A DNA stretch of 36,776 nucleotides from Microcystis aeruginosa Ma_SC_T_19800800_S464 (GTDB lineage Bacteria > Cyanobacteriota > Cyanobacteriia > Cyanobacteriales > Microcystaceae). The number at the start of each line of letters is the position of its first letter. Position 1 is the first letter of the stretch. Shown one piece after another: positions 3,356 to 36,776 of the stretch. The stretch is taken from positions 1 through 36,776 of the forward strand of contig SFBL01000177.1 in assembly GCA_007095785.1 (NCBI GenBank), given 5' to 3'. The notes beneath the pieces were generated by a model. That model was not told where the DNA came from, did not search any database, and saw nothing but the letters and a program-made list of their open reading frames with translations. The position numbers and the translations under genes were made by a program.

Positions 3356-3428
3356 TTTAACTTCACTCCTCAACGATTACGGGATTCAACGGACAAAAAA
3401 CGCAATACTCACACCAGATTGAAGACTA

Positions 3429-4987: not shown

Positions 4988-4996
4988 ACTTTTTGT

Positions 4997-6112
4997 CTAT
5001 ACCTCCCGTAATCCTAAACCGAGAACTGTTCCTAATCCAGGTCTTTCGGTATTAGGAATCTCTTGAGTTGTGTCTAAGTTCAATGATGCGATCGGATCGA
5101 TTGCCATGGTGGGGACGCTGAGACGTTGAGTAAAATATTCGTCTAGTTGTGCTAAACCGCCCCCGGGACCTGCTAAAAGTAACTGGACGATTTCCAGTTC
5201 ATCGCTTTGGTTAAGATAGAAATTAATCGAGCGCCGCAATTCATCGGTTAATTCCCCTAAAACCCTCATCAGTGCCGTCATCCCGGCGTTAGTAGGGACT
5301 CCGGAAGTGCCGGTATTGGTGCTAAGACTATCAAAGGCAGTAATCGGGATTGTCATGCCCAAAAGAATCTCAGGACTGCGGGAGGTGGGCAAATTCATCG
5401 CCCTGGAGAGGGCATTTTGTAGCTGGAAAGTGCCGATGGGTACAGTGCGGGAAAATTGGGGAACCCCATCCACCACGATGGCAATTTCCGTGTTATCAAA
5501 TTCTATATCAACAATGACGGCAGCTTCATTGGAACTAAACTGCCGCAAATGCTCGCGAATCGTCCGAATTAGGGCAAAACTATTAATTTCTAGCACATCT
5601 ACCTCTAATCCTGCCTGTTGGAAGGTTTCCATATAGGCATCGGTAATCTCCCGACGAGTGGCTACCAGCAAAACCTGCACTTTTTCGATCCCGTCTTCAT
5701 CCTGAAAGTAGCCCAGTTTTTGGTAGTCGAGATCCACTTCCTCGCGAGGATAGGGAAGGTATAAACTAGCCTCATGATTTAAGACCAGATCGCGCAATTC
5801 CTGATCGTCCAATTCCGAGGGAATCGGGATAATCCGGATAATTGACTCCCGCATCGGCACACCAGTAGCGACTCGTTTGCTGTTAATTTTATTCTCCTTG
5901 AGGACTTCTTGGATTAATTCCGCTAAAGCGGGGGAATCGACGATTTTTCCCTCCTCAAAGATGCCTTCCGGGATATCCGACCAGCAATATTTAACTAATT
6001 GATAATTTTGTCCCTGTTTGGCGATCTGAGCGACGTTAATCCGTTCTGGGGTAATCTCTAACCCAACACCTTGATTTTTTTTTGTCAATAGCTTCTTAAA
6101 AAAACTTACCAT
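4997..6112 (-). CDS. pilM: Type IV pilus assembly ATPase-fold protein PilM
   Basis: PilM is an actin/FtsA-fold cytoplasmic protein that anchors PilN and is the base of the pilus alignment complex. The 371-residue product begins with GVGLEITPERINVAQIAKQG, the first phosphate-binding strand of the fold. It contains the PilM-typical segments KRVATGVPMRESIIRIIPIP and LRRSINFYLNQ, and a glycine-rich LLLAGPGGGLAQL near residue 315. It is the first gene of the cluster. The start ATG at 6112 gives a family-like amino terminus, but no strong ribosome binding site is visible before it. The 506-base divergent spacer to ilvC should carry its promoter. Confidence 0.92.
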   Translation of the reverse strand: MVSFFKKLLTKKNQGVGLEITPERINVAQIAKQGQNYQLVKYCWSDIPEGIFEEGKIVDSPALAELIQEVLKENKINSKRVATGVPMRESIIRIIPIPSELDDQELRDLVLNHEASLYLPYPREEVDLDYQKLGYFQDEDGIEKVQVLLVATRREITDAYMETFQQAGLEVDVLEINSFALIRTIREHLRQFSSNEAAVIVDIEFDNTEIAIVVDGVPQFSRTVPIGTFQLQNALSRAMNLPTSRSPEILLGMTIPITAFDSLSTNTGTSGVPTNAGMTALMRVLGELTDELRRSINFYLNQSDELEIVQLLLAGPGGGLAQLDEYFTQRLSVPTMAIDPIASLNLDTTQEIPNTERPGLGTVLGLGLREV

Positions 6113-6548
6113 AGATTTTCTTGGGCAGACCTAAGGGGATTGGTGATCAACAAAGCCAATAATTTTTTGACCTGATTTTATCTAGGGTCGATCAAGGCAG
6201 TAAATCAGTCTATAAACGATCCTGACTGGGTAAATCACCCAGAAAAGGTGAAAATCGAGGAGGAGAGCCGCTATTCCTCTACTAAATGCTAACCCGATTA
6301 TCTGTGTTCAGAGCGAGGTTAATCTTGACTGGGTGAGAGGAGAGGAAGTGCCTATTGATGGTGATATTGTAATCAATTTTGGTGAAAGAACCAAGTCTAG
6401 ACAAAAAACCTAGTTAACCGCTCCATCTCGTTTCCTACTCCAGAAAAATTCGCCTTCGTTAGTTAGATTACCCAAATATCTCCAGAAAATTTGAATTTTT
6501 CTAGGCACTATTTTTTCTTGACTCCCAGAAATAGGCGAGCGAATGCTT

Positions 6549-6575
6549 CTGACAGGCGTGATTTTCCCGTATAAT
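6549..6575 (+). promoter_or_regulatory. Candidate ilvC promoter in the pilM-ilvC spacer
   Basis: TATAAT at 6570-6575 is a perfect -10 hexamer 44 bases before the ilvC ATG. CTGACA (6549-6554) is a possible -35, with a short 15-base spacing. The rest of the divergent spacer (6113-6548) contains no open frame I can support and no recognisable riboswitch. Confidence 0.4.
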
Positions 6576-6606
6576 TAGGAGTTTGCACAGTGACAAAAGA
6601 AGTTAA

Positions 6607-7611
<1,005 letters not shown>

Positions 7612-7618
7612 TTCTCTT

Positions 7619-7746
7619 TTTTTCGGTGGAGGGTTGGACGCAACCTGGCAATTCTTGCTGTTGAGTCCGCCCCTACACCCCACACCCCAACCCCCAACCC
7701 CCAACCCCCAACCCCCAACCCCCAACCCCCAACCCCCACCGAAAAA
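7619..7746. repeat. Inverted repeat enclosing a CCCCCAA heptamer array between convergent genes
   Basis: TTTTTCGGTGGAGGGTTGG (about 7619) is mirrored by the CCAACCCCCACCGAAAAA end (about 7729-7746) with one mismatch. Between them CCCCCAA repeats about eight times (7685-7738). The base sequence can fold into a long stem and sits between the 3' ends of ilvC and the membrane-protein gene, so it could end transcription from both sides. GAAAAACTTTTTCAGCAG just beyond resembles the GCTGAAAAAG end of the TTAGGG MITEs, suggesting an eroded copy. Confidence 0.6.
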
Positions 7747-7765
7747 CTTTTTCAGCAGCTCCTAC

Positions 7766-8554
7766 CTAGTAGATCGCCTCCCGTGATTTGACCAGACCGA
7801 TCGCCCGTAAACCGGCAATAACACCACAACCGATCACCATACCGACGAGGGAACGAATCAGATTTTCTACGGGAATGATCGGAATTAAAGCGATCCAGAC
7901 TTCTTCAGGCCAGTTAAAAATCGAGTAGGTAATGGCGACGACCCCTAAATGGGAGAGGCCGCTGGCGGTCCAAGTCCCCCCAAAAATTCCCGCAGCTCCT
8001 AGAGCTAAATTATTACCTTTGATCCAATGGGTAAAAAGAGTCCGGGTTGGCAGGATAAATAATACCAAAGCCGACCAGTCGACGAAAGCCCCGGCGATAA
8101 AGACTCGTGGCGAAATGCCGTTCAGTCCGATCGCCCGGTTAGCGTAGATAAACAGGGGAATCAGAAAAATTAACGTTAATCCTAACCACCAATAACGGCG
8201 TTTTTTGCCTAAAACCATCGTTCCCGCCACAAAACTAGACAAAATAGCCCCAAAGACCGAAATAGCGGGAATTCCTGCCGTGTAGGGGGCAAGGAAAGCC
8301 CCAATTAAGGCCCCAATGCCGCTAGCGATCGCCCCAGCGATCGGGCCGAGTAACCAACCCAAAAGGGGAAAAACCGCTTGACTGAGGGGCATACTACCGC
8401 CGGAAGCGAGGACAATGGAGAAGGGAATAAAAGAAAGGGTGGTGACAATGGCCGCTAAGACGACAATATAGGCGATCGGCGCACCATCAATGGCGGCACT
8501 ACTGACAGCCTCTACTTTGCGTTCTTCCCCTTCGGGGATAATATCTAGGGTCAT
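7766..8554 (-). CDS. Multi-pass membrane protein, ECF transporter S-component-like
   Basis: The 262-residue product has a short hydrophilic amino terminus followed by about six hydrophobic helices. Its glycine/alanine-rich helices, for example FPLLGWLLGPIAGAIASGIG and ending in VGMVIGCGVIAGLRAIGLVK, resemble substrate-binding S components of energy-coupling-factor vitamin or metal transporters. In those the S subunit captures the ligand and shared EcfAA'T units drive import. No ATPase or EcfT gene lies nearby, so a shared module elsewhere would be needed. The ligand cannot be told from sequence. The family assignment is by overall pattern only. Confidence 0.55.
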   Translation of the reverse strand: MTLDIIPEGEERKVEAVSSAAIDGAPIAYIVVLAAIVTTLSFIPFSIVLASGGSMPLSQAVFPLLGWLLGPIAGAIASGIGALIGAFLAPYTAGIPAISVFGAILSSFVAGTMVLGKKRRYWWLGLTLIFLIPLFIYANRAIGLNGISPRVFIAGAFVDWSALVLFILPTRTLFTHWIKGNNLALGAAGIFGGTWTASGLSHLGVVAITYSIFNWPEEVWIALIPIIPVENLIRSLVGMVIGCGVIAGLRAIGLVKSREAIY

Positions 8555-9023
8555 AGTTGCAAGGGTAATTCTAACTTTTCTATCATCCTCTGGTTTGATC
8601 TTCTTCGGGCAATGATTGATTTTTTCGATAACAGCGCACGGTAATGTGATCCTAAATCCGTTGAGTATAGGCTACATATCAGGACAGGCACTCATGCAAA
8701 AGGGAGAATAAATAATCAGTCTTTAATAACTGGATTTATAGCGTTTCCTGTTCGCAAGAGGTACATTATCGATGTTAAAAAGCTTTATCAGCAAAGGTTT
8801 AACTGTGCCACATAGTGTGAGAACCGCTATAGTATGACATCCAAACAGATAAAACTCAAAAACAGTAGGGCCAGCTTTTGGCGTATATCCGCAAAAACTG
8901 GCACCTTCTATCTACTGACTTTCATATATTTAAGGTCTTTATCTCGGCTGACCTCATTTCAAATTGTCTATAGTATTTCCTACTTTTCCATCGTTTCCTC
9001 TATACTTAAGTATTTTTTAATAT
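8555..9023. other. Gene-free spacer with a MITE and a dispersed 18-mer
   Basis: The spacer between two minus-strand genes has no supported gene. ACAGGCACTCATGCAAAA (about 8684-8701) recurs at about 24091. The MITE at 8739-8829 occupies the middle. A 113-codon forward frame from 8834 runs into the yqeG gene on the other strand and has no family features, so I do not call it. Confidence 0.6.
8739..8829. mobile_element. 91-bp MITE with TAGCG...CGCTA ends at a TA target
   Basis: The ends TAGCGTTTC and AACCGCTA are imperfect inverted repeats flanked by TA on both sides. Internal blocks such as GAGGTACA and GCAAAGGTT align with the two elements at 24400 and 24838, so this is a diverged third member. 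A TA target duplication is typical of IS630/mariner-type elements. Confidence 0.6.
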
Positions 9024-9578
9024 TTACTTTTGTGAGGATTGGTCAGGTTTTATTAAGTAATGCTGCGGATGTAGCGAAACGCCGAGAATTTCTGATATCC
9101 ACACCTCAAAATCGTGGATTGGATAAGCTTGCCCCCCCGTCAAAGGATTTACCATTGGTTTCACCAGAATGGTAAACATTCCCAGACGATTTCCCGCTAA
9201 AACATCGGTAAACAAGCGATCGCCAACCATAGCAATTTGTTGGGGGGGAAGTCCCATGGCTGCCATCGCTTGCCGGAGTTTGCGTCGAGAGGGTTTCACC
9301 GCACCGAGAAGGTAGGGAAGTTGTAAATTATCAGCGATCGCACCGATGCGATTTTCGCTCAGATTATTGCTTACCAACCAAATCGGTAGATAAAGACGCA
9401 AGGAATCGACCCAACGCTGTAAATCGTCAGAAACCGTCGTTTCCTGGAGGGGAACAAGGGTATCGTCCACATCAAGAATCAATCCCTTAATCTGATGCTG
9501 ACTCAAAATCTCCAGACTGAGTCCGAGAATCGTATCCCCTAAAATTAAATCAGGTTGTAGAATTTTTGCTCTAGTCAT
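9024..9578 (-). CDS. YqeG-family HAD-superfamily phosphatase
   Basis: The product is a 184-residue single-domain HAD phosphatase of the YqeG/IIIA type, probably cytoplasmic; its physiological substrate is unknown to me. Motif I is LDVDDTL with the nucleophile and acid/base aspartates at residues 36 and 38. Motif II is the serine of LVSNN near 68. Motif III is the lysine of GAVKPSRR near 95. Motif IV is the VGDRLFTDV block near 118. All four catalytic motifs are intact. The methyltransferase gene lies upstream on the same strand, 116 bases away. Confidence 0.88.
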   Translation of the reverse strand: MTRAKILQPDLILGDTILGLSLEILSQHQIKGLILDVDDTLVPLQETTVSDDLQRWVDSLRLYLPIWLVSNNLSENRIGAIADNLQLPYLLGAVKPSRRKLRQAMAAMGLPPQQIAMVGDRLFTDVLAGNRLGMFTILVKPMVNPLTGGQAYPIHDFEVWISEILGVSLHPQHYLIKPDQSSQK

Positions 9579-9694
9579 TAACTTCTCAAAAATAACTGGC
9601 AGCGAGTCGCTCGAACTCAGCTTGATTAAAAAACCGTTGCCTTATTCAGTATAAATGACCGACTGCCCCTGAAAATAATGCCTGGTCGATCCCT

Positions 9695-10324
9695 TCACTT
9701 GACCGCTTGTATCACCTGTAAACTACCACCAGCGTATAATTTTTGTTGACAATCACGAAAACCGATCGCCTGTAAAGATCGGATCAGGTCCCTATCGATA
9801 AACTGCCAAGCGGTATCGGTTTCAAATAATTGCAAAAATAGGGCTAAAGAAGGCCAAAAAAGCGGGTTAGTGGGTCGATGAAAATCCACGAGGGCAAAAA
9901 TTCCCCCCGGTCTGAGAACTCGATACACTTCTTTCAGGATTTCCTCTAACTGCTCCGGTTCCATTTCGTGGAGAGCGGCGCTAGTATGAACAAAGGCGAA
10001 TTCTCCGGCACTAAAGGGCATTTTTTCGGCTAATCCCTCCACATAATGCGCTTGTGGCACCGCTAAACTAGCTCGCTCCAGGGCCCGGGGAGAAACATCT
10101 AAACCGACACAGCGATCGGATAGGGGTACTAAATAACGGGTGGTTTGACCCGCACCACAACAGAGATCGAGGATAGAGTCATTTTTAGCTATTTTTAAAC
10201 CTTCTAGGGCCAATTGCCGAAAACGGGACTCCCCACCCACTGCTAGGGCAGCCAGACGGGAGATACCATCGTAAAGCCATTGATATTGATAACTGAGGGG
10301 ACGTAAAATTGTCGCCAAGATCAA
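9695..10324 (-). CDS. Class I SAM-dependent methyltransferase
   Basis: The 209-residue protein has the Rossmann methyltransferase fold. Motif I is ILDLCCGAGQT (residues 51-61), the acidic loop is VGLDVSPRALERA, and the post-II region is MPFSAGEFAFVHTSAALHEM. The motif VYRVLRPGGIFALVDFHRP is typical of UbiE/MenG-like C- or O-methyltransferases acting on small molecules. The methyl acceptor cannot be deduced. The amino terminus (PLSYQYQWLYDGISRL) also resembles the ubiquinone/menaquinone methyltransferase group. It is divergent from hemH with a 113-base spacer. Confidence 0.85.
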   Translation of the reverse strand: MILATILRPLSYQYQWLYDGISRLAALAVGGESRFRQLALEGLKIAKNDSILDLCCGAGQTTRYLVPLSDRCVGLDVSPRALERASLAVPQAHYVEGLAEKMPFSAGEFAFVHTSAALHEMEPEQLEEILKEVYRVLRPGGIFALVDFHRPTNPLFWPSLALFLQLFETDTAWQFIDRDLIRSLQAIGFRDCQQKLYAGGSLQVIQAVK

Positions 10325-10437
10325 CCTCCAAGATTTGATTAAGTTCTCTGTAGCCTGTAATTTGTTTTAACGGTTCCACCGATATATTGTTAAACTTGGT
10401 AAAGAATCTGAAAATTTAAAAATTATCTGTTAACACT

Positions 10438-11601
10438 ATGGGTCGCGTTGGCGTTTTATTATTAAATTTGGGTGGGCCGGAGCGGTTAGAGGATGTGCGT
10501 CCTTTTCTATTTAACCTTTTTTCTGACCCAGAAATCATCCGTTTACCGATCAAAGGATTACAAAAACCGTTAGCTTGGTTAATATCGACGCTAAGAGCGA
10601 GTAAATCCCAGGAAAATTACCGTCAGATCGGTGGTGGCTCTCCTTTACTCAAGATTACGGAAGCACAGGCCACGGCACTGCAACAACGTCTCGCGGAAAT
10701 GGGCCGCGAGGTGAGCGTTTATATTGGGATGCGTTACTGGAATCCCTTCACCGAAGAAGCGATCGAGCGGATTAAACGGGATCATATCAAAAAATTAGTT
10801 ATTCTGCCCCTTTATCCCCAATTTTCCATCAGCACCAGTGGTTCCAGTTTTCGTGTGCTGGAGGAAATGTGGCAACAGGATCCCTATCTGCGTTTAACGG
10901 AATATACTCTCATCCCCTCTTGGTACGATCATCCCACTTATCTGAGTGCTATGGCGGATCTGATTGTGCGAGAGTTAGAACAGTGTGCTAATCCTGATCA
11001 AGTACATATCTTTTTTAGCGCCCATGGTGTCCCCCAAAGTTATGTGGAGGAAGCGGGAGATCCCTATCAAAGGGAAATTGAAGAATGCACTAGGGCGATC
11101 ATGCGTACTCTAAACCGACCCAATCAGTACACTTTAGCCTATCAAAGTCGCGTCGGTCCGGTGGAATGGCTAAAACCCTACACTGAAGATGCTTTAAAAG
11201 AGTTGGGAGAGCAGGGAATTAAGCATTTATTGGTCGTGCCGATTAGCTTTGTCTCGGAACATATCGAAACCCTGCAAGAAATCGACATAGAGTACCGAGA
11301 AGTGGCGGAAGAAGCGGGAATTGAACATTTTCAGCGAGTACCGGCTCTTAACACTCACCCGATGTTTATCGAATCTCTCTCCCAGTTAGTGGTCAAATCC
11401 CTAGAGGAAAAACCCACCACTTTCGAGCAAATTACCCGTCCGAAAGCTAATATGAAAATGTATCCCCAAGAGCGTTGGGAATGGGGTATGACCACGGCAG
11501 CCGAGGTGTGGAATGGTCGATTAGCGATGATCGGTTTTCTGGCAATTATTATCGAATTAATTACCGGTCAAGGACCGTTACATTTTGTTGGTTTATTATA
11601 A
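10438..11601 (+). CDS. hemH: Ferrochelatase with C-terminal chlorophyll a/b-binding (Hlip-like) tail
   Basis: HemH inserts Fe2+ into protoporphyrin IX, the last step of protoheme synthesis. The start [14 protein letters not shown] and the active-site [17 protein letters not shown] are family hallmarks, with the catalytic histidine in FFSAHG and the conserved glutamate in [15 protein letters not shown]. Residues about 320-342 form a linker. Residues about 345-387 are a membrane helix with the CAB motif [12 protein letters not shown], a feature of cyanobacterial and plastid ferrochelatases that ties them to pigment-binding assemblies in thylakoids. Length (387) is normal for this fused type. 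Confidence 0.96.
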
Positions 11602-11647
11602 CCCCAATCTTCGCTGCAATTGCTTTTGACGGTAACTACCAAAATAA

Positions 11648-11676
11648 GGTTGGGTTTAACTATATTTAACCCAACC
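11648..11676. terminator. Hairpin between convergent hemH and the 83-residue gene
   Basis: GGTTGGGTTT and TTAACCCAACC form a stem of about 9-10 bp with a short A/T loop. The hairpin lies 47 bases after the hemH stop and just beyond the 3' end of the opposing gene. It has no long T tract. The GGTTGGGTT core recurs at 30235. Confidence 0.5.
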
Positions 11677-11693
11677 ATTGGCGATTTTATCTC

Positions 11694-11945
11694 TTAGGAC
11701 ATCATATTAGCAGAACGAACATTAACGTTAACTTCTAGCCTGCCATTGCCGAGCATATCTAACCCAGTGACGCTAAACAGATTAGCTTTAATCCCCCTTT
11801 CCTGAAAATTAGCCTGTAATTCTTTGATGAGAACCTCTTCCACTTTCCCTTCATCATCTGCTAGAGCTTGGACGATTTTAGCGGCGAAAGAGCCAATTTT
11901 TGCGCTTAATATTTCTTCCACATTGGTAATCTCGATAATAACCAT
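11694..11945 (-). CDS. Small conserved-looking protein of unknown function
   Basis: The product is an acidic 83-residue protein with no signal peptide or membrane helix. It alternates helix-forming stretches (VEEILSAKIGSFAAKIVQAL, KVEEVLIKELQANFQERG) with two short strands (KANLFSVTGLDML and GRLEVNVNVRSANM). I do not recognise the family. It converges on hemH and is divergent from the ATPase gene at 12096, separated by 150 bases. Codon use looks like that of its neighbours, so it is probably real. Confidence 0.6.
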   Translation of the reverse strand: MVIIEITNVEEILSAKIGSFAAKIVQALADDEGKVEEVLIKELQANFQERGIKANLFSVTGLDMLGNGRLEVNVNVRSANMMS

Positions 11946-12095
11946 TGATTTTTCTTCTTAGTAGAGGACAAAGAGCTTGACAAGCCAATAAGAACAGAAT
12001 TTGCGAGAAAATAGAGCTGCTCTCATCTTAGGAATCAGTATAACCTGCACTGTTCTCCCCTAAACGTAAATTCCCACCCTGAAGGAGATTACTGC

Positions 12096-13514
12096 ATGAT
12101 AAACCTAGAGACCCTAGAAGGTTGGTTAAATGCCCCAGTGGAAAATGAGCGACTAGAATTTAAACAGGCTAAAAATCAATTTGATACAAACAAACTGTTA
12201 AAATATTGCGTCGCTCTTGCTAATGAAGGAGGTGGCTATTTTATCTTAGGTGTTACCGATAAACGTCCCCGTAAAATTGTTGGTTCAGAAGCCTTTCCTA
12301 CACCCGAAGCAATTAACAAAATAAAAGCCCAAATCGTGGAAAAACTTCGCTTGCGCGTGGAAATCACCGAATTGGCCCCCCCTGATGGTCGTGTCTTGGT
12401 TTTTGAAGTGCCAACCCGTCCCACAGGACAACCTATCGCCTTTGAAGGCGCTTATCTAATGCGAGCAGGGGAAGACTTAGTACCCATGACACCTGATCTG
12501 CTTAAGCGCATTTTTGCTGAAGATCAACAAGATTGGTTTTGTCAATCCGCTTGCTTTCATGCTAGTCCAGATGAGGTTATTGACCTACTCGACACCCAAA
12601 CCTACTTTAAATTGCTCAAGCTTCCTTATCCTAGCCATCGTGATGCTGTTCTAGAAAGGTTACAAGGCGATCAACTCCTTGACAAAACATCAAAAGGTTG
12701 GACAATTCCTAATTTATCTGCCATTCTTCTGGCCAAACAACTTGAGAGCTTTTCCCCTACCTTAGCCCGTAAAGCAGCTCGAGTGATTATCTATGAGGGA
12801 ACAGGTAAAATTAAAACTCGGCTGGAACAGACAGGAATTAAGGGATATGCTGTGGGTTTTGAGGGTTTAGTTAATTTTGTCCACGATTTAGCCCCTCAAA
12901 ATCGCATCATCGAGGAGGTTCTTAGGGAAGAAGTGAAAATGTTTCCTAAACAAGCTTTGCGAGAACTCATCGCCAATGCTTTGATTCATCAGGACTTTCT
13001 CACTACAGGTGCTTCGGTGATGATTGAAATGTATGATGATCGAGTAGAAATCTCTAACCCTGGTATTCCTTTTATCAAAGTAGAACGCTTTATAGACGAA
13101 TATCGCTCCCGTAATGAGCAATTAGCTGACATAATGCGTCGTTTTGGCATTTGTGAAGAAAAGGGCAGTGGTATTGATAAAGTTATTTCCGCTGCCGAGA
13201 AATTTCAACTTCCCGCACCAGATTTTAGAGTAGGTGAGATCCGAACAACTTCTATCCTATTCGCTCATCAGGATTTTGGCAAAATGAGTCAATCTGACCG
13301 TATTCGCGCTTGTTATCAGCACTGTTGTCTCCTATATATCAATAATCAACGGATGTCTAACCAGAGCTTAAGAGAGCGATTTCATTTAGACGAGTCAAGA
13401 GCTGCCACTGTGTCTCTACTAATCGGTGCAACTAAAGAAGCGGGACTGATTAAATCCGACGAATCTGAATCTAAATCAACTCGTTATGCTCGTTATCTCC
13501 CCTTTTGGGCCTAG
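12096..13514 (+). CDS. AlbA_2/Schlafen-domain protein with GHKL-type ATPase domain (divergent AAA_4 / RecG-like)
   Basis: The 472-residue protein starts with an AlbA_2 (Schlafen-type) domain (residues ~15-130) with ERLEFKQAKN, ALANEGGGYFILGVTD and the LMRAGEDLVPMTPDLL end. Residues ~290-370 carry the HATPase-like segment ELIANALIHQDF, MYDDRVEISNPG and GSGIDKVISAAEKF. A winged-helix region closes the protein. Such proteins are often annotated as transcriptional regulators or RecG-like helicases, but no helicase motifs are present. GGAG eight bases before the ATG fixes the start. The gene is solitary, which suits an accessory regulator or defence-related gene. Actual role unknown. Confidence 0.8.
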   Translation: MINLETLEGWLNAPVENERLEFKQAKNQFDTNKLLKYCVALANEGGGYFILGVTDKRPRKIVGSEAFPTPEAINKIKAQIVEKLRLRVEITELAPPDGRVLVFEVPTRPTGQPIAFEGAYLMRAGEDLVPMTPDLLKRIFAEDQQDWFCQSACFHASPDEVIDLLDTQTYFKLLKLPYPSHRDAVLERLQGDQLLDKTSKGWTIPNLSAILLAKQLESFSPTLARKAARVIIYEGTGKIKTRLEQTGIKGYAVGFEGLVNFVHDLAPQNRIIEEVLREEVKMFPKQALRELIANALIHQDFLTTGASVMIEMYDDRVEISNPGIPFIKVERFIDEYRSRNEQLADIMRRFGICEEKGSGIDKVISAAEKFQLPAPDFRVGEIRTTSILFAHQDFGKMSQSDRIRACYQHCCLLYINNQRMSNQSLRERFHLDESRAATVSLLIGATKEAGLIKSDESESKSTRYARYLPFWA

Positions 13515-13541
13515 ACTAGCCCTGGGCGAAGTCGAAAGGCT

Positions 13542-13638
13542 AAAAAGTGCTTTAACGCAAATCCATTTTAGGGATGTCAAATCGGCGAAACCCTTATGCA
13601 GCAAGCAAAAAAGTGTTTTAACGCAAATCGACATTTTT
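13542..13638. repeat. Direct repeat pair, about 66-bp spacing
   Basis: AAAAAGTGCTTTAACGCAAA (from 13542) and AAAAAGTGTTTTAACGCAAA (from about 13608) are nearly identical and both continue into a CATTTT-like run. They lie between the convergent 3' ends of the ATPase gene and prfB. With only two units this is not a CRISPR array. Confidence 0.7.
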
Positions 13639-13708
13639 CCAAGAGGAGATTTTATCATCACTTCCACACCAGAGTGGGACTTGTGGACGACAACGGCGAT
13701 ACATTTCT

Positions 13709-14816
13709 TTAAACTCCACCCCCCAAACGTAAATAGGCTTCAATAAAGCTATCTAAATCCCCATTCATTACCCCAGTAACATCGGTGGTTTCCACATTAC
13801 TACGGAGATCCTTAACTAATTGATAGGGATGAAAAACATAGTTACGGATTTGATTGCCCCAAGCGGCCTCCACCATATCGCCGCGAATTTCGGCGATCGC
13901 TTGAGCCTGTTGTTCCCGAGCGATAATTAACAATTTCGCTTTTAATAAAGCTAGGGCTTTTTCTTTATTTTGTAATTGCGATCGCTCTTGGGTACAACGC
14001 ACAGCGATACCTGTGGGAAGATGAACTACACGCACGGCAGTTTCCACTTTATTAACATTTTGTCCACCTTTTCCCCCGGATCTAGTGGTGGTAATTTCTA
14101 AATCTTTATCGGGAATTTCTACCCTCACCGCATCATCACCCAAAATTGGCATCACTTCCACCCCGGCGAAACTGGTTTGACGTTTACCATTAGCATTAAA
14201 AGGGGAAATTCTGACTAACCGATGGGTGCCTTTTTCTCCTTTCAGATAACCGTAAGCATAAGTTCCGGCAATTTCAATTGTCACCGATTTAATTCCCGCT
14301 TCATCTCCTTCTGATATTTCCGCTAAAGTGACTTTATATCCCTGTTTCTCGGCCCAGCGAGAATACATTCTCAGGAGCATTTCTGTCCAATCTTGGGCAT
14401 CAGTTCCCCCGGCCCCCGCATTAATCGTTAAAACCGCTCCTTTTGCGTCGTAGGGACCATTTAAAAGCTGTTGCAATTCCCAGCGATCGAGGTCATGCTG
14501 TAAATGAGTTAAATTGTCCGTCGCTTCTTCTAGTAAAGCTCGATCGGATTCTAATTCTAATAACTCGATAATTGCCTTAGTATCTTCTAATTGTCCACAC
14601 CAACCCTGATAGGATTCTAAAGAAGATTTACATTCGTTTAGTTCTTGCAGGGTTTTTTGAGCAGTATCGGGATTATCCCAAAAAGTGGGGACGGCTGCCA
14701 CCTGTTCTAAGTCTTTAATTTTGGCCCTTAAAGTGGGTAAGTCAAAGATAGTCCTGGGTTTTACCCAGGCGCGATCCTACTATCTCGATACCTTTTTTTA
14801 GTTCTGATATTTCCAT
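13709..14816 (-). CDS. prfB: Peptide chain release factor 2 (programmed +1 frameshift)
   Basis: RF2 recognises UGA and UAA stop codons and triggers hydrolysis of peptidyl-tRNA. The main frame carries the GGQ peptidyl-hydrolase motif ([19 protein letters not shown]) and RF2 domain 2. The gene starts at ATG 14816: 24 codons ending ...KTQDYL precede an in-frame TGA (14744-14742). Shifting +1 at CTT TGA C continues as [19 protein letters not shown] into the long frame. This is the classical autoregulatory frameshift: scarce RF2 stalls at UGA and promotes the shift. The corrected product is 368 residues, normal for RF2. An annotation starting at the internal GTG (14701) would miss the amino terminus. 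Confidence 0.96.
14741..14769 (-). promoter_or_regulatory. prfB +1 frameshift site with 5' stem-loop
   Basis: On the message, CCTGGGT-AAA-ACCCAGG (14769-14753) is a perfect 7-bp stem with a three-base loop, followed at once by ACTATCTTTGAC, where CTTTGAC is the slippery stop site. The Shine-Dalgarno-like AGGA that normally stimulates the shift overlaps the 3' arm of the stem. Confidence 0.8.
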
Positions 14817-14819
14817 GTT

Positions 14820-15060
14820 TTCAGTTATCAGTTATCAGTTATCAGTTATCAGTTGCTCTAGAAGTCAGGAGGCCGGAGTTGAGAGTTGAGAGTTGAGAGT
14901 TGGGGTTTTAGGGTTTTGGGGGTTTGGGGGTTTAGGGAAATTTCAGCCAAATGCTCCACTTCCCCATTTCCCCATTTCCCCACTCCCCCATTTCCCCATT
15001 TCCCCATTTCCCCATTTCCCCACTCCCCCACTCCCCCATTTCCCCTATCCACTCTCTGTT
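14820..15060. repeat. Composite of four heptamer-type repeats
   Basis: TTATCAG (about 14821-14853), GAGAGTT (14879-14899), GGTTTTAGGG/GGGGGTTT runs (14900-14937) and TTCCCCA/CTCCCCCA (14956-15043) follow one another between prfB and the DUF3747 gene. Open frames on both strands here are repeat translations and are not called. Confidence 0.85.
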
Positions 15061-15078
15061 CCGCAGTTCCAGCGTTCA

Positions 15079-16215
15079 CTAAAATGGTACGATCGATCCG
15101 CGCAGGGGGGCAAGACTTTGTAAAGCGTTTTCAGCCTTATCACGACTACTAAACGCGCCTATTTGCCAGACGCGACGACCTTGGTGGGAAGTGGGGAAAG
15201 CGTCGGGATAGAGAGAACGAACTTTGCTGCGATCGCTCTCGGTTTTAGCTTCAATTACTACTTTAAAGCCTTTGCGGCCAGTATTACCAGTATTACCAGT
15301 ATTACCACTACTGGGATTAGGGGCAGCCCGATTAAAAGTGATTACGTCTGATAAACTTCTGGGATTGCCTAGGTTGCGCGGTGGCGGGGGTGGTACAATT
15401 GCATTATTATTCTGAGCATTGGGAGGAGTCAGGGGGGGTAAATTAGGGCTAACGGTCGGCTGTGGCGTTAAATTTGACTCTGGTACTCGATTAGTGACCA
15501 ATGGCTGAGGAGTGCTTCGTACTGCTGTTTCTGCAGCGGTAAAAGTATATTCTCGCACTTCGGGATCACTGGAAGGACTAACAGGTGTTTCTGCTTTCAC
15601 GGATTCTCTGGGGGGGGGTGTGGGGGGGATAGACGATTGGGTACCCGCGAGTAATTCCGGGGGAGGATTGAAACTGGGACTATCGGCAGTTAGATAGATA
15701 TGACTGAGATTTTGACCGGCTAGACTGCGTTTAGTAAAGCGCCAGCCATCGATGAGATAAATTTGGATTAAACCGGTCCCTAAACCTTTTGTCCGTCCAA
15801 TAATTACCTCCGATTGTCTGGGATTGCGTGGGGTTCCCACGAGGACTAATTCCCCGTTGCGTTGTACGATACGCAGCAGGTATTCTAAACCGTAATCTTT
15901 GCCCTGAATGCGAAGGGAATAACCGTTACTGTCGGTGGCCCGTTCACAACTGCCGGTAAAATCGAAATCGAGGAGGAGAGGCTGAACAATGGTCGGTTCT
16001 GTGCCATTTACCGCCCAACATTGGCGTTTCCCGGGGATTTGTTGCAAAATCAGTAAATCGTATTTACCGTTACCGTAGGGACGGGCAATAGCGATAAAAT
16101 CCTCTTGATTAACTTCTCGTTGTTCAAAGAGAGTTGCTTGACTGGGTGTCGTCAGGAGACAACCCCCCAGAAGTGAAAACAGTAGGGTAAATTTTAAGGA
16201 TGATTTTAGATTCAT
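15079..16215 (-). CDS. Secreted DUF3747-domain protein with SPOR-like C-terminus
   Basis: The 378-residue protein has a lipoprotein-like or Sec signal (LKFTLLFSLLGGCLLTTPSQA). Residues ~28-180 match the cyanobacterial DUF3747 pattern (FEQREVNQEDFIAIARPYGN, YLLRIVQRNGELVLVGTPRN, GWRFTKRSLAGQNLSHIYLT). A long proline/serine-rich linker follows. The end (KGFKVVIEAKTESDRSKVRS...VWQIGAFSSRDKAENALQSL) is like a SPOR peptidoglycan-binding repeat. GNTGNTGNTG in the linker is encoded by a perfect 9-base repeat near 15290. Function unknown; an envelope role is inferred. AAGG precedes the ATG. Confidence 0.8.
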   Translation of the reverse strand: MNLKSSLKFTLLFSLLGGCLLTTPSQATLFEQREVNQEDFIAIARPYGNGKYDLLILQQIPGKRQCWAVNGTEPTIVQPLLLDFDFTGSCERATDSNGYSLRIQGKDYGLEYLLRIVQRNGELVLVGTPRNPRQSEVIIGRTKGLGTGLIQIYLIDGWRFTKRSLAGQNLSHIYLTADSPSFNPPPELLAGTQSSIPPTPPPRESVKAETPVSPSSDPEVREYTFTAAETAVRSTPQPLVTNRVPESNLTPQPTVSPNLPPLTPPNAQNNNAIVPPPPPRNLGNPRSLSDVITFNRAAPNPSSGNTGNTGNTGRKGFKVVIEAKTESDRSKVRSLYPDAFPTSHQGRRVWQIGAFSSRDKAENALQSLAPLRGSIVPF

Positions 16216-16321
16216 AAATAAGGAGCCTTGTTATGGAGATCGTACTTGCATTTATTTTATCGATTTAGACGCAAGGGAGAGAATTTTGTTTTCCTAGGGG
16301 AAATAGTTTTATAATTCAGTT

Positions 16322-16350
16322 GTCGGCCGTCAGCCGTCAGCCATCAGCTA
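16322..16350. repeat. GCCGTCA heptamer array
   Basis: About three and a half units of GCCGTCA/GCCATCA sit in the 203-base spacer before the broken toxin gene. No other feature is seen in 16216-16418. Confidence 0.75.
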
Positions 16351-16418
16351 GGAAAGGCAATCATACCAATTGAAAGGTCTTGGAGTCTGCTCAATTCTGC
16401 TGGATTTTTGCTAGGGAT

Positions 16419-16718
16419 TTATTTTATCTCGGAGAATAAAGCTTCTAAGTCTTGACGACCGCTAACTATTCTTAAAATCTCTACTGTGTCATCAATAACT
16501 CGATAGAAAATAATATATCCATCTAAAGGCAACCCTCTCAAGGACGGTCTAATATGACTGTAACTACGTCCTCAATTGGGAAATTGTGCTAATTGTTGAC
16601 ACTTTTGGGAAAATTTTATCAATAGTTTTTCCCCAGCTTCCACGTTTACCGCTAAAAAATAATCAGCAATCTTGTTTAAATCTTGACTGGCTGATGGGGC
16701 AATAATATAACGATTCAT
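16419..16718 (-). pseudogene. ParE-like toxin gene with in-frame TGA
   Basis: From ATG 16718 the frame reads MNRYIIAPSASQDLNKIADY and on to QQLAQFPN. It then meets TGA (16574-16572, codon 49) and continues in the same frame as GRSYSHIRPSLRGLPLDGYI, then IFYRVIDDTVEILRIVSGRQ to a TAA at 16419. The whole 99-codon frame is a typical ParE/RelE toxin, where FPN is usually followed by one residue and then GR. A single nonsense change thus removes the second half of the toxin fold. The antitoxin gene upstream is intact and two bases away. A sequencing error is the alternative. Confidence 0.85.
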
Positions 16719-27036: not shown

Positions 27037-27133
27037 CATGACTGACGCTAGTATCTGCACTACTTCCTTGTCAGCATCAGGATTTTCAGTGATTTGGGGA
27101 TTTTCAGGATTATTGGATGACGATGTAAGATAA

Positions 27134-27224
27134 TAAGCTAAACGGCGCTTAACCCGCATGAGCCAATAGCTATAACCCTTTTGGAGTCTATATCGGTGAT
27201 CCGAAGTAAAAGCCGTTTAGCTTA
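27134..27224. mobile_element. 91-bp MITE with TAAGCTAAACGGC ends, copy 1
   Basis: TAAGCTAAACGGCGCTT and AAAAGCCGTTTAGCTTA are inverted terminal repeats. The same 91 bases occur at 36151-36241 with about three differences, so both insertions are recent. There is no open frame. Confidence 0.85.
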
Positions 27225-31474: not shown

Positions 31475-34027
31475 CTAAATGTCTTCAGATTCCTCCCCAT
31501 CACTAGGGGGAACTAGGGCTACCGCAGCGATCGCATCGTCCTCATCGAGTTTTTGTACCCGGATGCCTCCGGCCGATCGCGATTGGGGAGTAATAGCATC
31601 GACGGATTGACGGATAATAATACCCCGTTCGGTGATAATCATAAATTCCTCGTTGGGGTTAACAACGTGCAGAGCCGCTAATTTATCGTTCTTTTTGCGG
31701 AATTTAATCACTCTGACTCCTAATCCCGCCCGATTTTGCAGACGTAGGAGGGTAACGGGAACCCGTTTTCCTAGTCCTGCCATGGTAATCGCTAACACCC
31801 AGGGGCCATTATTAGCCACTTCGGGGTTAATTTCTTCGCTTTCGTCCTCGGTTTCTTCTTGGTTAGATTCAGCGATTTGGGCGACAATTTGACTAGGCAG
31901 GATGTCCATACTAATTAATTCGTCACCTGAGCGCAATTTCATCGATTTTACGCCCTTAGTTGCCCTTCCCAGGGAGCGCAATTGTTGACTATCGGCCTTA
32001 AAATGAATTGCCATCCCCTGACGAGAACCGATAATGACGCTATCTTCCTCTTTGGCCAAGCGAACCCAACGTAGTTGATCACCGTCTTCGAGAGAAATGG
32101 CGATTAAACCGTTCGATCGAATATTACTAAAGGCAGCGAGGGCGGTTTTCTTGATAAATCCCTTTTGTGTGAGCATAATCAGGTAATTATCCTCGCTGAA
32201 CTCGCTGACTGCCACCACCGAGGTGATTTTCTCCCCTTTGGGAATCTCTAACAGTTGCACGATCGGAACTCCGCGAGCGGTACGGGAACCGGTGGGGATA
32301 TGATAGGCGTTGAGACTATAGACAACCCCGCGATCGGTGAAAAAGAGGACGCTATCGTGATCGCGGCAGGTGATAAAGTGATCGATGCCGTCGTCTTCTT
32401 TCATTTTCGCGCCAGCTTTGCCCCTTGTCGCCCGATTTTGGGACTCAAAGGTATTAACCGGCATTCTTTTGATGTAACCCTGTTCAGTGACAAGAATTAA
32501 GGCCTGTTCGTTGGCAATCAGGTCAGTTTCGGCGATTTCTCCTTCCCGTTGTTCAATATGACTGCGACGGGGGGTAGCGTGAATCGTTTTGATCTGTTGC
32601 AGTTCTTCCTCGATAATGCTGTCGATCCGTTCTTTTCTGGCTAAAATATCCTGAAGATCGCTGATTTTTGTCAGTAAGTCCCCGTGTTCTTGCTGAATTT
32701 TCTCCGATTCTAGGGCAGTTAACCGTCGCAGCTGCATTTGTAGGATTGCGTCCGCTTGCACCTCTGAGAGACCAAAATTCTGCACTAATCCCTCTTTTGC
32801 GGTAGCTGTATCGGCAGCACTGCGAATCAGGGCAATGATTGCATCGAGACTAGCGAGGGCAATTAGTAAACCCTGAAGGATATGATCCCTTTCCTCGGCC
32901 TTGCGGAGTTCATAACGGGTACGACGGGTGATCACTTCTACCCGAAAATCGAGGAAAACCCGGAGAAACTCCCTTAAAGTCAGTAATCTCGGTTCGTTAT
33001 CGACTAATGCCAACATATTCGCCCCAAAATTCGACTGGAGGGGCGTTTGTTTATAGAGATTGTTGAGGACGACGCGAGGATAGGCATCTCGTTTCAGTTC
33101 GATCACCACCCGGATGCCGTCGCGATCGCTTTCGTCCCGCACATCGGAAATACCGTCTATTTTGCGATCGTTGACTAAATCGGCGATTTTTTCGATTAAT
33201 GCCGCTTTATTGGTTTGATAGGGCAGTTCGGTGATAATAATAGCATCTCGATCGGGTCTTCCCCTTTGTTCGATGGTTTCAAAGGAGGCGACTCCCCGCA
33301 GGGTAATAGAACCGCGGCCGGTGGTGTAAGCTTCCTGAATACCGTCTCTGCCAAGGATATGCCCCCCGGTGGGAAAGTCTGGACCGGGGATATAACGCTG
33401 TAATTCCGTATCGGTGAGATCGGGGTTATGGATGAGGGCAACAGTTCCATCGATGATCTCGGCCAGGTTGTGGGGGGGGATATTGGTGGCCATACCGACG
33501 GCGATCCCCGATGAGCCATTAATTAGCAGTTGTGGGACTCTAGAGGGTAAAACCACGGGTTCCTGTTGGGAACCATCGAAGTTATCGGCGAAATCGACGG
33601 TTTCTGACTCGATATCCTGTAGAAGGGCGTTGGTGGCCAGGGTGTGCAGACGACACTCGGTATAACGCATGGCTGCCGGGGGATCGTTATCGATCGATCC
33701 GAAGTTACCATGACCGTTAATCAGGGGATCGCGCATGGAGAAATCCTGGGCCATGCGGACGAGAGCATCGTAAACGGCAGTATCCCCGTGGGGGTGGTAT
33801 TTTCCTAATACTTCCCCGACGACTCTAGCGCATTTCCGGAAGGGGCGATCGGGGGTTAATCCTAGTTCGTACATCGCATAAAGAATGCGCCGGTGTACGG
33901 GTTTCAGTCCGTCCCTAGCGTCGGGCAAGGCGCGCCCGACGATGACGCTCATGGCGTATTCTAGATAGGAACGGGACATTTCATTGCTTAAGTCTGTGGG
34001 GACGATATGATCCTGGGCGGCGGTCAT
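31475..34027 (-). CDS. gyrA: DNA gyrase subunit A
   Basis: The A subunit of type II topoisomerase cuts and rejoins DNA during negative supercoiling. The amino-terminal domain reads [20 protein letters not shown], the quinolone-region segment is [20 protein letters not shown], and the catalytic tyrosine is in AMRYTECRL. With the start at 34027 the tyrosine is residue 122 and the quinolone-contact positions are Thr83 and Asp87, matching E. coli numbering, so the longer in-frame start at 34114 is unlikely. The carboxyl-terminal pinwheel carries [10 protein letters not shown] as the GyrA-box. Length is 850 residues. Confidence 0.97.
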
Positions 34028-34219
34028 AGGGGGGTTAACTCCAATAACAAGGCAAAAAAGCGTTTTTGTGAGTAAATTCGCTAAAAATCGGGCTTTTACC
34101 CTTTTGATGTGCAAAATATGCCCATTTGTACGACTATTTTACCATAAAATCTCCCTTTTTTGTCGGTTTTGAGGCGGCGCTCGCAGGTTTCTTGGCTGGG
34201 ATGGGGAGTTAATGGTTTG

Positions 34220-34804
34220 TTATCCTCTTGACAGAGATTGCAGAAAGTCGCGCAGCTCTTTAAAAGAAGGACAACGAGTGGCACAAAGTTCTAAATTTAG
34301 CTTTTCGGCTAGTTCAACATTCATGTTGGTACTATAACGGGGTTTTCTATTTTCACCGATTGACAATTGGATCAATTTTTCTTTCGGTTTGATAATTAGG
34401 TGAGGGTTTGGGTGAGCGTTTCCCTTGCCTCGTCCCACATATTTAACCACCTCTGGATCAGACCAAAACCAAGCCTCTAATTCTTCTATTGGGATGCAGA
34501 TATATTTCCTGATACCATTAATATTGGAACAGCTTGATTCTAAGTGATCTCGCAATTGTTTTTCATCATTAAGAGAGTTATTCTTGGGATTACGATCTAA
34601 ATCATGAACAATGATAAAAGCATCACATCCTTCCCTTGTCATCACTTTAAGTTTTGCTGACAGTTTTCTCTTTAATGTACTAGAGGATTTAGATGCCCAA
34701 GATTTTGTCCTAGTATTTGTCCCCAGAACGCGATGGATAATTTGACGAAACACATCGCAGTCCGTCTCATCTTCGGCAATTATGGCGATCAAGTTACTAC
34801 TCAT
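34220..34804 (-). CDS. DUF4276-like TOPRIM protein, partner of the upstream ATPase
   Basis: The product is 194 residues. NLIAIIAEDETDCDVFRQII supplies the TOPRIM glutamate (E11) and FIIVHDLDRNP the D-x-D pair (D68, D70), the metal-binding residues of TOPRIM nucleases. PIEELEAWFWSD (105-116) is characteristic of the DUF4276 group. The ATG at 34804 overlaps the ATPase stop by eight bases (ATGAGTAG), so translation is coupled; an upstream in-frame start at 34816 would add four residues. Such ATPase/TOPRIM pairs resemble split OLD-family defence systems (for example AriA/AriB of PARIS). Nuclease or effector action is inferred. Confidence 0.75.
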   Translation of the reverse strand: MSSNLIAIIAEDETDCDVFRQIIHRVLGTNTRTKSWASKSSSTLKRKLSAKLKVMTREGCDAFIIVHDLDRNPKNNSLNDEKQLRDHLESSCSNINGIRKYICIPIEELEAWFWSDPEVVKYVGRGKGNAHPNPHLIIKPKEKLIQLSIGENRKPRYSTNMNVELAEKLNLELCATRCPSFKELRDFLQSLSRG

Positions 34805-36011
34805 CGAGAATACCACTGTAAATCCAGTCTCCTAAATCTCCTTCTTCACAGAGGTACTCGACAACTTTTTCAATCTCTCCTTCTTCTAGTTTCCTAACAC
34901 TTGTCCGTCCCTGGTTACGATAAACTAAGCTAATATTTTCTGGCTTTGTCCAAGCTACTACTTGTGGTGAATGAGTTGATATAATTAAATTTTCATCCCA
35001 AGTATAGGATTTAATTTCATTTAATAATTTTGCTAACATTGCGGGATGTATTTGTGTTTCTGGCTCCTCAATTATGGTTGTTGCATTAGGAGAGTGAGCA
35101 ATTATTTCGATAAGAATTGATAAAACTCGCAAGGTGCCATCGGAGAGTAATCCAATATTGACTCCATCTAATAATACTGAAGCGATGTACTCTTCGTCTT
35201 TACCTTGGCCTGTCTGTCCAGAATGCTCACTCAAAACGAACTTCTGCACAGTGATTTTCTTGGCAAGTCCTATTCGTTGACAAATATTTTCTAGTTCATC
35301 AAAATCATCCGTACCTACCCAACGAAATATTCTCCGAGCTAGAGTATCTGCTAGATCAAATCGACTGGCAGAAATCTTCTTACTTGCCACCTTTAGTAAG
35401 GAAGGCTGTCGTCTTGATGTGCGACGGATAGGAGCTTTGCCAAGAAGACGAATCCCTTTTAAAATAGCATAAACCCACTGCATTTCTGGAGGTAAATTTA
35501 GCGATGAATTTCTAGGTATATTTGACTGTCGCAGCGAGGTAGTATTGCCAAGAATAGCAAATATTGGCTCACCATTATTAGGGAAGCTTGTTAGTCCAAA
35601 TTGGCTTTTCCAGAGAAGTTCTTGATCTCCATCAATATACTGACAAGAATCATCCCAAGTGAAGGAACTTTCCAAGGAATTATCGTTAGTGGTATCATCT
35701 ATGTCTGTATCTAGATCGTCCATAGAAAAGGGGATGATTAGCTCATACCTGTATCCTAAGCGCCGGTTAGTCGGTGTTAGAATTTCAACCTGCAAAATTG
35801 TGGGAATGCTATCACTGTCAATCATCCGAGAGCCGATCGATCTACCGATAGCACAGGATGAGATGGCTTCAAATCCTTCTAGGATAGCGGATTTCCCCGC
35901 ACCGTTTCTACCCACTAATACCCCAACTTGGTTAACTAGGGATAGGGAAACTGGACCTCCTAGCACACCCCAACCATCGAGGGTAAAAGATAATAGTCTA
36001 GGCTGGTTCAT
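34797..36011 (-). CDS. SMC/OLD-like AAA ATPase of a two-gene system
   Basis: The 404-residue ABC/SMC-type ATPase of the AAA_21/AAA_15 group has Walker A VGRNGAGKSAILEGF (residues 33-47), an ABC signature-like LLSDGTLRVLSILIEI (~285), Walker B TTIIEEPETQIHPAML (~310) and the switch histidine in IISTHSPQVVAWTKP (~345). OLD-family ATPases keep a TOPRIM domain fused at the end; here the TOPRIM is encoded by the next gene. The insert between Walker A and signature (~80-270) has no recognisable coiled coil and may be a recognition module. It is probably transcribed with the TOPRIM gene from the 36012-36150 spacer. Biological role unproven. Confidence 0.85.
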   Translation of the reverse strand: MNQPRLLSFTLDGWGVLGGPVSLSLVNQVGVLVGRNGAGKSAILEGFEAISSCAIGRSIGSRMIDSDSIPTILQVEILTPTNRRLGYRYELIIPFSMDDLDTDIDDTTNDNSLESSFTWDDSCQYIDGDQELLWKSQFGLTSFPNNGEPIFAILGNTTSLRQSNIPRNSSLNLPPEMQWVYAILKGIRLLGKAPIRRTSRRQPSLLKVASKKISASRFDLADTLARRIFRWVGTDDFDELENICQRIGLAKKITVQKFVLSEHSGQTGQGKDEEYIASVLLDGVNIGLLSDGTLRVLSILIEIIAHSPNATTIIEEPETQIHPAMLAKLLNEIKSYTWDENLIISTHSPQVVAWTKPENISLVYRNQGRTSVRKLEEGEIEKVVEYLCEEGDLGDWIYSGILDE

Positions 36012-36150
36012 ATTAAAACAATTCTAGTTTTTGGGATCATACAGAGCCTTATTAGTTAATTATATCCAATCTATCTGATCTTCCCTCAGTTTTCCGGGCT
36101 GGCGGCTGGCGATCGCCGATGAGGACTACTTTTAGCAGTTTTTCCCTCGA

Positions 36151-36241
36151 TAAGCTAAACGGCGCTTAACCTGCATGATCCAATAGCTATAACCCTTTTG
36201 GAGTCTATATCGGTGCTCCGAAGTAAAAGCCGTTTAGCTTA
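36151..36241. mobile_element. 91-bp MITE with TAAGCTAAACGGC ends, copy 2
   Basis: Same element as 27134-27224, differing at about three positions. It lies 140 bases upstream of the ATPase gene, separating it from the mobile block at the right edge. Confidence 0.85.
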
Positions 36242-36504: not shown

Positions 36505-36776
36505 TTAGGGCTTGCTGATTGACATCCTCGCCGCCGTAAAACGGACGGCGATTCCTCACCACGCCACTTTTTTAGGGTGGTCGCGTCAATGGGGTTGACG
36601 CAGATAGCGAAAAACGCTTAATTGCTTAAGTCTGACACTTTCGACCCGTCCATTTTGAGTGTCCGAATGCCCTCCGGCCACTTTGAACAAGTCGAAAAAA
36701 TCTCATGTTCAACCTTATTTCCTAGAAAGTTTTACTCGTTCAAGGCCGAATTTGAAGTCTTTTCTGAACGAAACCC
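36505..36776 (-). mobile_element. Right end of an IS200/IS605-type element adjoining a second TTAGGG terminus
   Basis: TTAGGGCTTGCTGA (36505-36518) is another MITE end, directly followed by TTGACATCCTCGCCGCCGTA and the imperfect hairpin CGCCG...ACGGCG. This resembles the subterminal hairpin and right end of IS200/IS605 elements. Reading inward on the minus strand, only short broken frames are seen (for example RTLKMDGSKVSDLSN), so any tnpB here is degraded or lies beyond the window. Confidence 0.6.

Follow-up and report, generated by a model that had tools for sequence, protein, structure and literature searches.

Related ATPase–TOPRIM systems

An ABC-type ATPase is combined with TOPRIM chemistry in OLD proteins, GajA and retron-Eco8, where the two modules are described as fused in one chain (PMC10568477). 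In PARIS, the modules reside on separate genes. The OLD classes have been defined with PARIS as class 4 and with Cran1 as an OLD-family ATPase outside defence (PMC10568477, PMC12796447), and operons of OLD-type ABC and TOPRIM proteins are regarded as conflict systems (PMC12839542). The detection of PARIS by Rousset et al. relied on an AAA_15 or AAA_21 ATPase together with a DUF4435 effector; its function is reported to depend on the two genes and on the active sites of each, and growth of infected cells is halted (PMC9122126). PARIS is further characterized by activation through the anti-restriction protein Ocr. The effector, AriB, is described as cutting tRNAs (PMC12409363). Here, we analyze a two-gene ATPase–TOPRIM pair that lies upstream of gyrA in a stretch of 36,776 nucleotides, referred to as the window, from Microcystis aeruginosa Ma_SC_T_19800800_S464 (contig SFBL01000177.1, assembly GCA_007095785.1). 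Judged by its profile matches, the pair belongs to a divergent clade, found mostly in cyanobacteria, of AAA_21 plus DUF4276 pairs, a kind that PADLOC catalogues as candidate HEC-01.

The literature on such candidates is sparse. HEC stands for Hma-embedded candidates, several of which are reported to be active, and the relevant passage names HEC-06 while HEC-01 is not named there (PMC12988326). Hma itself is defined elsewhere (PMC8565338), and HEC is not mentioned in PMC9252829. A full-text literature search returned nothing for DUF4276, nothing for HEC-01 together with PADLOC, and nothing for MAD3 or MAD4; among the papers listed for HEC and PDC candidates, few are relevant.

The ATPase and TOPRIM genes

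The ATPase gene (34797..36011, minus strand) encodes a protein of 404 amino acids with an ABC/SMC-type head of the AAA_21/AAA_15 kind, which may act as the sensor or regulator subunit of the pair. It is followed on the same strand by the gene of a putative nuclease effector (34220..34816), a TOPRIM protein of the DUF4276 group that measures 198 amino acids when read from a GTG codon and 194 when read from an in-frame ATG at 34804. The ATG appears the more likely start, because a methionine at that position is common to the aligned copies. With this start, the stop codon of the ATPase frame and the start of the TOPRIM frame overlap by 8 nt in the sequence (34797..34804, minus strand, ATGAGTAG), an arrangement already recognized in the original prediction. 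The overlap suggests that translation of the two genes is coupled.

Conservation of the active sites was assessed in an alignment of 24 copies, consisting of the window pair, 21 loci (L063–L083), L086 and L046; L062, which is near-identical to another copy, was omitted. In the ATPase, the Walker A (GxNGxGKS) and Walker B (EEPE...HP) motifs are invariant, and the signature LSDGT, present where classical ABC proteins have LSGGQ, is invariant or at least 90% conserved. The switch-region histidine H347 is conserved in at least 90% of the copies and is replaced by glutamine in L073. In the TOPRIM protein, numbered from the 194-residue ATG form, no variation is seen at E11 and D68-x-D70 or, within the stretch IEELEAWFW, at E107, E108 and E110. 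The roles given to all these residues are those that we take to be general for the two families. The motifs of the ATPase and the E and D-x-D residues of the TOPRIM protein, which had been called intact from the window alone, are confirmed as intact.

Pairwise ratios of nonsynonymous to synonymous substitution among four Microcystis copies range from 0.27 to 0.63 for the ATPase and from 0.32 to 0.71 for the TOPRIM gene, values that derive from small counts and fit two intact, fairly fast-evolving genes. The pair has a G+C content of 40%, below that of gyrA (50%) and of the window (45%). A terminator scan found none, promoter-like sites number 8 against a shuffled mean of 5.5, and an Rfam scan yielded nothing at the gathering threshold.

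Comparison with described systems

The ATPase scores 70.1 bits against Pfam AAA_21 (cut-off 27) and 49.2 bits against AAA_15 (cut-off 32.1), and lies above the 27 and 32 bits, respectively, by which a PARIS ATPase is recognized. AriA is the solved protein nearest to it in sequence, and the head fold is of the AriA type. The ATPase model lacks a coiled coil, its longest helix spanning about 15 residues. The pair differs from PARIS in its effector: the TOPRIM protein scores 40.4 bits against DUF4276 (cut-off 30.2), its Pfam matches at E ≤ 1 comprise DUF4276, DUF3226 and one spurious match but not DUF4435 (PF14491), and AriB is not among the 18 PADLOC families listed. Membership in PARIS was rejected, as neither a DUF4435 effector gene nor a fusion is present. 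The absence of a coiled coil and the assignment of the effector to DUF4276 instead of DUF4435, on which the original prediction had based its imperfect fit to PARIS, are both upheld. A single-chain OLD protein, in which one polypeptide defines classes 1 to 3, was likewise rejected, since the modules form two open reading frames (ORFs) here, as they do in each of the clade's 23 complete pairs.

The strongest matches in PADLOC point to HEC-01. The ATPase is matched best by HEC-01A (9.7e-23) and the TOPRIM protein by HEC-01B (1.8e-9), although both matches are weak and of partial coverage. All 24 TOPRIM proteins of the clade (alignment A3) match DUF4276, and they match HEC-01B models at E ≤ 0.001. 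In profile–profile comparison with three HEC-01-type TOPRIM proteins of Microcystis, the TOPRIM protein shows full-length homology (E 4e-14, 177 columns) with the E, DxD and EExEAWF residues aligned, and the C-terminal lobe of the ATPase aligns across 116 columns with that of HEC-01-type pairs of Microcystis (E 3e-15). The window clade and the HEC-01 type have the same two genes, an AAA_21-type ATPase and a DUF4276 protein, as well as the EELEAWF motif in common. However, four other DUF4276 pairs of Microcystis match HEC-01 at 1e-48 to 1e-203, far more strongly than the window pair, and the window clade is therefore placed as a remote branch. It has no closely fitting PADLOC sub-model, and a clade member from a Thermoleophilia metagenome-assembled genome (MAG) has AriA as its top ATPase match (9.4e-24) instead of HEC-01A.

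The pair also resembles MADS, with the ATPase matching MAD3 (9.1e-16) and the TOPRIM protein MAD4 (8.7e-5), but these matches, at 58 and 22.7 bits, are below the NCBIfam equivalog cut-offs of 420 and 160, and the gene adjoining the window pair is gyrA and not a MADS gene. The original prediction of a candidate split OLD-type system was right in that the two modules are separate genes, but the locus is not a lone new system, as AAA_21 plus DUF4276 pairs are already catalogued as HEC-01, with MAD3/MAD4 related.

DUF4276 proteins are common in Microcystis: all 12 species genomes have them, with 38 matches in total (33 over the Pfam cut-off), whereas 14 control genomes yielded none. An ATPase ORF, recognized by its motifs, lies directly upstream in 28 of the 30 inspected loci among these 38, the other two being matches below the cut-off. 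Should the pair work as a switch in the manner of PARIS, it would add an effector group with a target that a direct test could identify. At one such locus, elsewhere in the genome of the window (L101, G000:C150 near 8507–9405), the ATPase of a HEC-01-type pair is broken into ORFs of 234 and 164 amino acids and appears to be decaying.

Distribution of the pair

Among 59 relatives, both proteins have full-length matches in four of the 12 Microcystis species genomes and in a single further genus (G016), and two more Microcystis genomes contain weak TOPRIM matches only (27%). Near-identical loci are present in Microcystis wesenbergii FACHB-1317 (97% in the TOPRIM protein) and in a Microcystis novacekii MAG (96%). 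Across the phylum, TOPRIM matches occur in 7 of 386 genomes at E 1e-6; three of these are Microcystis, and two have an in-frame stop inside the match.

When contigs were scanned with a profile of six members (A1), 50 stretches fitted the pattern, of which 24 code for relatives: 22 cyanobacterial, one from the Thermoleophilia MAG and one from a distant deltaproteobacterial MAG. Together with one IMG/VR locus, these 24 make up 25 fetched loci. The pairing of ATPase and TOPRIM exceeds chance, because 23 of the 25 loci hold a complete pair and the frames overlap in every one of the 23. The other two are a truncated remnant (L084) and a distant relative (L085).

Neither the 72,556 plasmid records nor the 50,697 phage records searched contained a tblastn match to the TOPRIM protein, in a collection from which records very near the window are possibly left out. 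On these results, spread by plasmid or phage was rejected, though the IMG/VR locus (L086) does contain the pair. This locus is a contig of 73.7 kb that is called viral; it could stem from a virus or a plasmid, or be a wrongly called fragment.

The gyrA gap in Microcystis

Downstream of the pair and in the same orientation lies the conserved gene gyrA (31475..34114, minus strand, likely ATG start at 34027), which is present in all 12 Microcystis species genomes. Several states of the gap preceding gyrA exist. It holds the ATPase–TOPRIM pair in four genomes (G000, G001, G007, G011), short intergenic sequence alone in three (G003, G006, G010), and a methyltransferase with a type II restriction enzyme in four (G004, G005, G008, G009). 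The defence reading would have been refuted by conservation of the pair at this locus in nearly all strains; instead, the pair occupies it in a third of the species, and restriction–modification (R-M) genes take the same place in four others. The remaining genome, G002, has the R-M-type left flank and the first methyltransferase codons, after which other sequence follows (L056). This sequence includes a repetitive ORF rich in glycine and tyrosine, as well as a short one that is transposase-like to the eye.

The methyltransferase of the gap belongs to the C5-cytosine enzymes: it is matched by PF00145 in G005 (E 6e-69) and by PADLOC MTase_II in G004, G008 and G009 (1e-113 to 1e-115). The restriction enzyme is matched by REase_II at 1e-113 to 1e-115 in all four genomes, is confined to these 4 of the 12 and is always located at the gyrA gap. 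A gene of the Cro/C1-type helix-turn-helix family adjoins the R-M genes, identified by the scan in G004 and visible as an ORF in G008.

The flanks of the gap are shared between these states. About 140 bp 5' of the likely gyrA ATG are common to all 12 genomes, and the right flank is common to G001, G007, the three empty genomes, G004, G008 and G009. In G000, the right flank is shared up to about 36153, where a repeat starts; the contig of G011 stops at the right flank, G005 is rearranged further right, and G002 has no right anchor. The interchangeable cassette extends approximately from 34169 to 36124, beyond which the flanks are shared with the three empty genomes, the base-level junctions being approximate. 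From these alignments, we read the states of the gap as an exchange of cassettes at a single site.

Bloom-forming cyanobacteria are reported to hold unusually many R-M systems (PMC8262939). Within closely related genomes, the gyrA gap offers a natural comparison of loci with the pair, without it and with R-M genes, which is useful for the question of how bloom cyanobacteria swap defences. Among the matches listed in a literature search on Microcystis defence, R-M and gyrA, none concerns the gyrA gap by its title or the start of its abstract.

Proposed function

The pair is probably an accessory antiphage cassette, a divergent cyanobacterial form of the AAA_21-ATPase plus DUF4276-TOPRIM kind that would act by sensor–effector abortive infection, and beside the essential gyrA gene it looks like a phage-triggered nuclease switch. 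The ATPase would form head dimers or a higher oligomer and hold its TOPRIM partner inactive until a phage product or a phage-linked event acts as the trigger, upon which the ATPase would activate or release the nuclease. The TOPRIM subunit would then cut nucleic acid, with tRNA as the target if it follows PARIS or DNA if it follows OLD and GajA, and this cleavage would stop the infected cell. Oligomer, trigger, release and substrate are all proposed by analogy with PARIS. At the sequence level, the mechanism is supported by the overlapping frames, the conserved active sites and the relation to AriA. The reading as an accessory cassette is also favoured by the family and profile–profile matches, the substitution ratios and the G+C content of the pair.

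The strongest support for a role in defence is the positional data at the gyrA gap. The neighbourhoods of the other copies point the other way. The set of neighbours comprises 136 proteins, encoded by ORFs of at least 100 amino acids within 4 kb of the pair at 21 loci outside Microcystis. The control set, which is not species-matched, likewise numbers 136, a sample of the 144 proteins from 20 arbitrarily chosen regions of 10 kb in 10 genomes. At E ≤ 1e-20, the neighbours match 53 PADLOC families (25 of them shown) compared to 24 for the controls, an excess that mostly reflects many models for few proteins; the DpdE and ZorD rows, for instance, all stem from one helicase in L067. The control proteins match Cas1, Csx1, reverse transcriptases, TnpB/Cas12f-like proteins and PDC-S03, and MAD3-like ATPases are represented by two proteins in each set. 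An enrichment of defence genes near the 21 other copies over the controls is not established, and many copies lie, by eye, among ordinary genes. Both observations weigh against a role in defence, and the defence reading therefore leans on the family relationship and the gyrA gap. The recurrence in defence islands that had been proposed as a check is not demonstrated; the earlier interpretation as a whole is partly supported, the observation underlying it being confirmed.

A further reading combines two elements: that the pair constitutes a separate, mainly cyanobacterial class of split ATPase–TOPRIM immunity with an effector target of its own, and that the gyrA gap is a small integrase-free exchange site where defence cassettes are swapped whole through recombination in the conserved flanks, so that the site holds the pair, a type II R-M system or no cassette. 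We consider this combination possible but rather doubtful.

The pair could also be a split OLD-type DNA nuclease. Its ATPase would then make direct contact with DNA of phage or other foreign origin, which the TOPRIM subunit would degrade, and no deliberate arrest of the cell would be involved. This is unlikely, as the TOPRIM matches do not exceed background, and a PDB sequence search with the TOPRIM profile at E ≤ 1 finds no OLD sequence, returning a single spurious S100 match. In addition, the partner of AriA, the nearest solved ATPase, is described as cutting tRNA (PMC12409363).

A module resembling a toxin–antitoxin system, as was tested for AbiL, would have a TOPRIM protein that is toxic alone and restrained by the ATPase, with phage defence secondary. 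The overlapping genes agree with such a module, as does the match of the ATPase to PADLOC AbiLi (1.5e-19), and the AbiLii protein of F. nucleatum is reported to be toxic in E. coli (PMC3985639). However, the same source describes AbiLi as being without antitoxin effect and L. lactis AbiLii as non-toxic (PMC3985639), loss of either gene is reported as non-toxic in PARIS (PMC9122126), and AbiLii is not among the PADLOC matches listed for the window TOPRIM protein, a point on which the pair also appears to differ from AbiL itself. A module of this kind is quite improbable here.

A housekeeping nuclease and ATPase in DNA repair, replication or the cell cycle would suit the ordinary neighbours of many copies and has a parallel in the archaeal OLD-family ATPase Cran1, for which an antiviral role is described as undetectable (PMC12796447), but the patchy presence of the pair in Microcystis and the phylum and its exchange with an R-M cassette misfit a core function and make this very improbable.

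Genomic surroundings of the pair

The clearest defence-rich neighbourhood is that of L069 in Planktothrix (2291–16420), where a type IIG R-M enzyme, an Orf5/HEC-06-type protein and a MAD3-like ATPase are located near the pair. The other clear defence-type neighbours in the set are an AbiEi/AbiEii pair near the ATPase–TOPRIM pair of L078.

A repeat is shared between the flanks of the pair in 9 of 22 loci (L070–L072, L076–L081) and in none of the other 13, and a general insertion mechanism based on a conserved flanking repeat was found unsupported on this count. In L070, 204 bp are present on both sides of the pair at 91% identity, as if a cassette carrying the start of a foreign gene had been inserted. 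These flanking copies (L070:6500–8900) correspond to the 5' end of an ORF of 1204 amino acids, taken for metH by reading. The flank repeats of L071, L072 and L076–L081 are short and mostly contain GCGATCGC; these we take to be HIP1-like.

The original prediction of mobile sequence on one side of the pair and gyrA on the other agrees with two multicopy elements in the window. A repeat of about 91 bp with terminal inverted repeats, resembling a miniature inverted-repeat transposable element, adjoins the cassette (36151..36241) and has five other copies in the window genome at 97–99% identity, one of them at 27133–27224 of the window and the remaining four, at 98–99%, elsewhere in the genome. The second element (36519..36776) reaches the contig end and is found in three other places at 96–97%.
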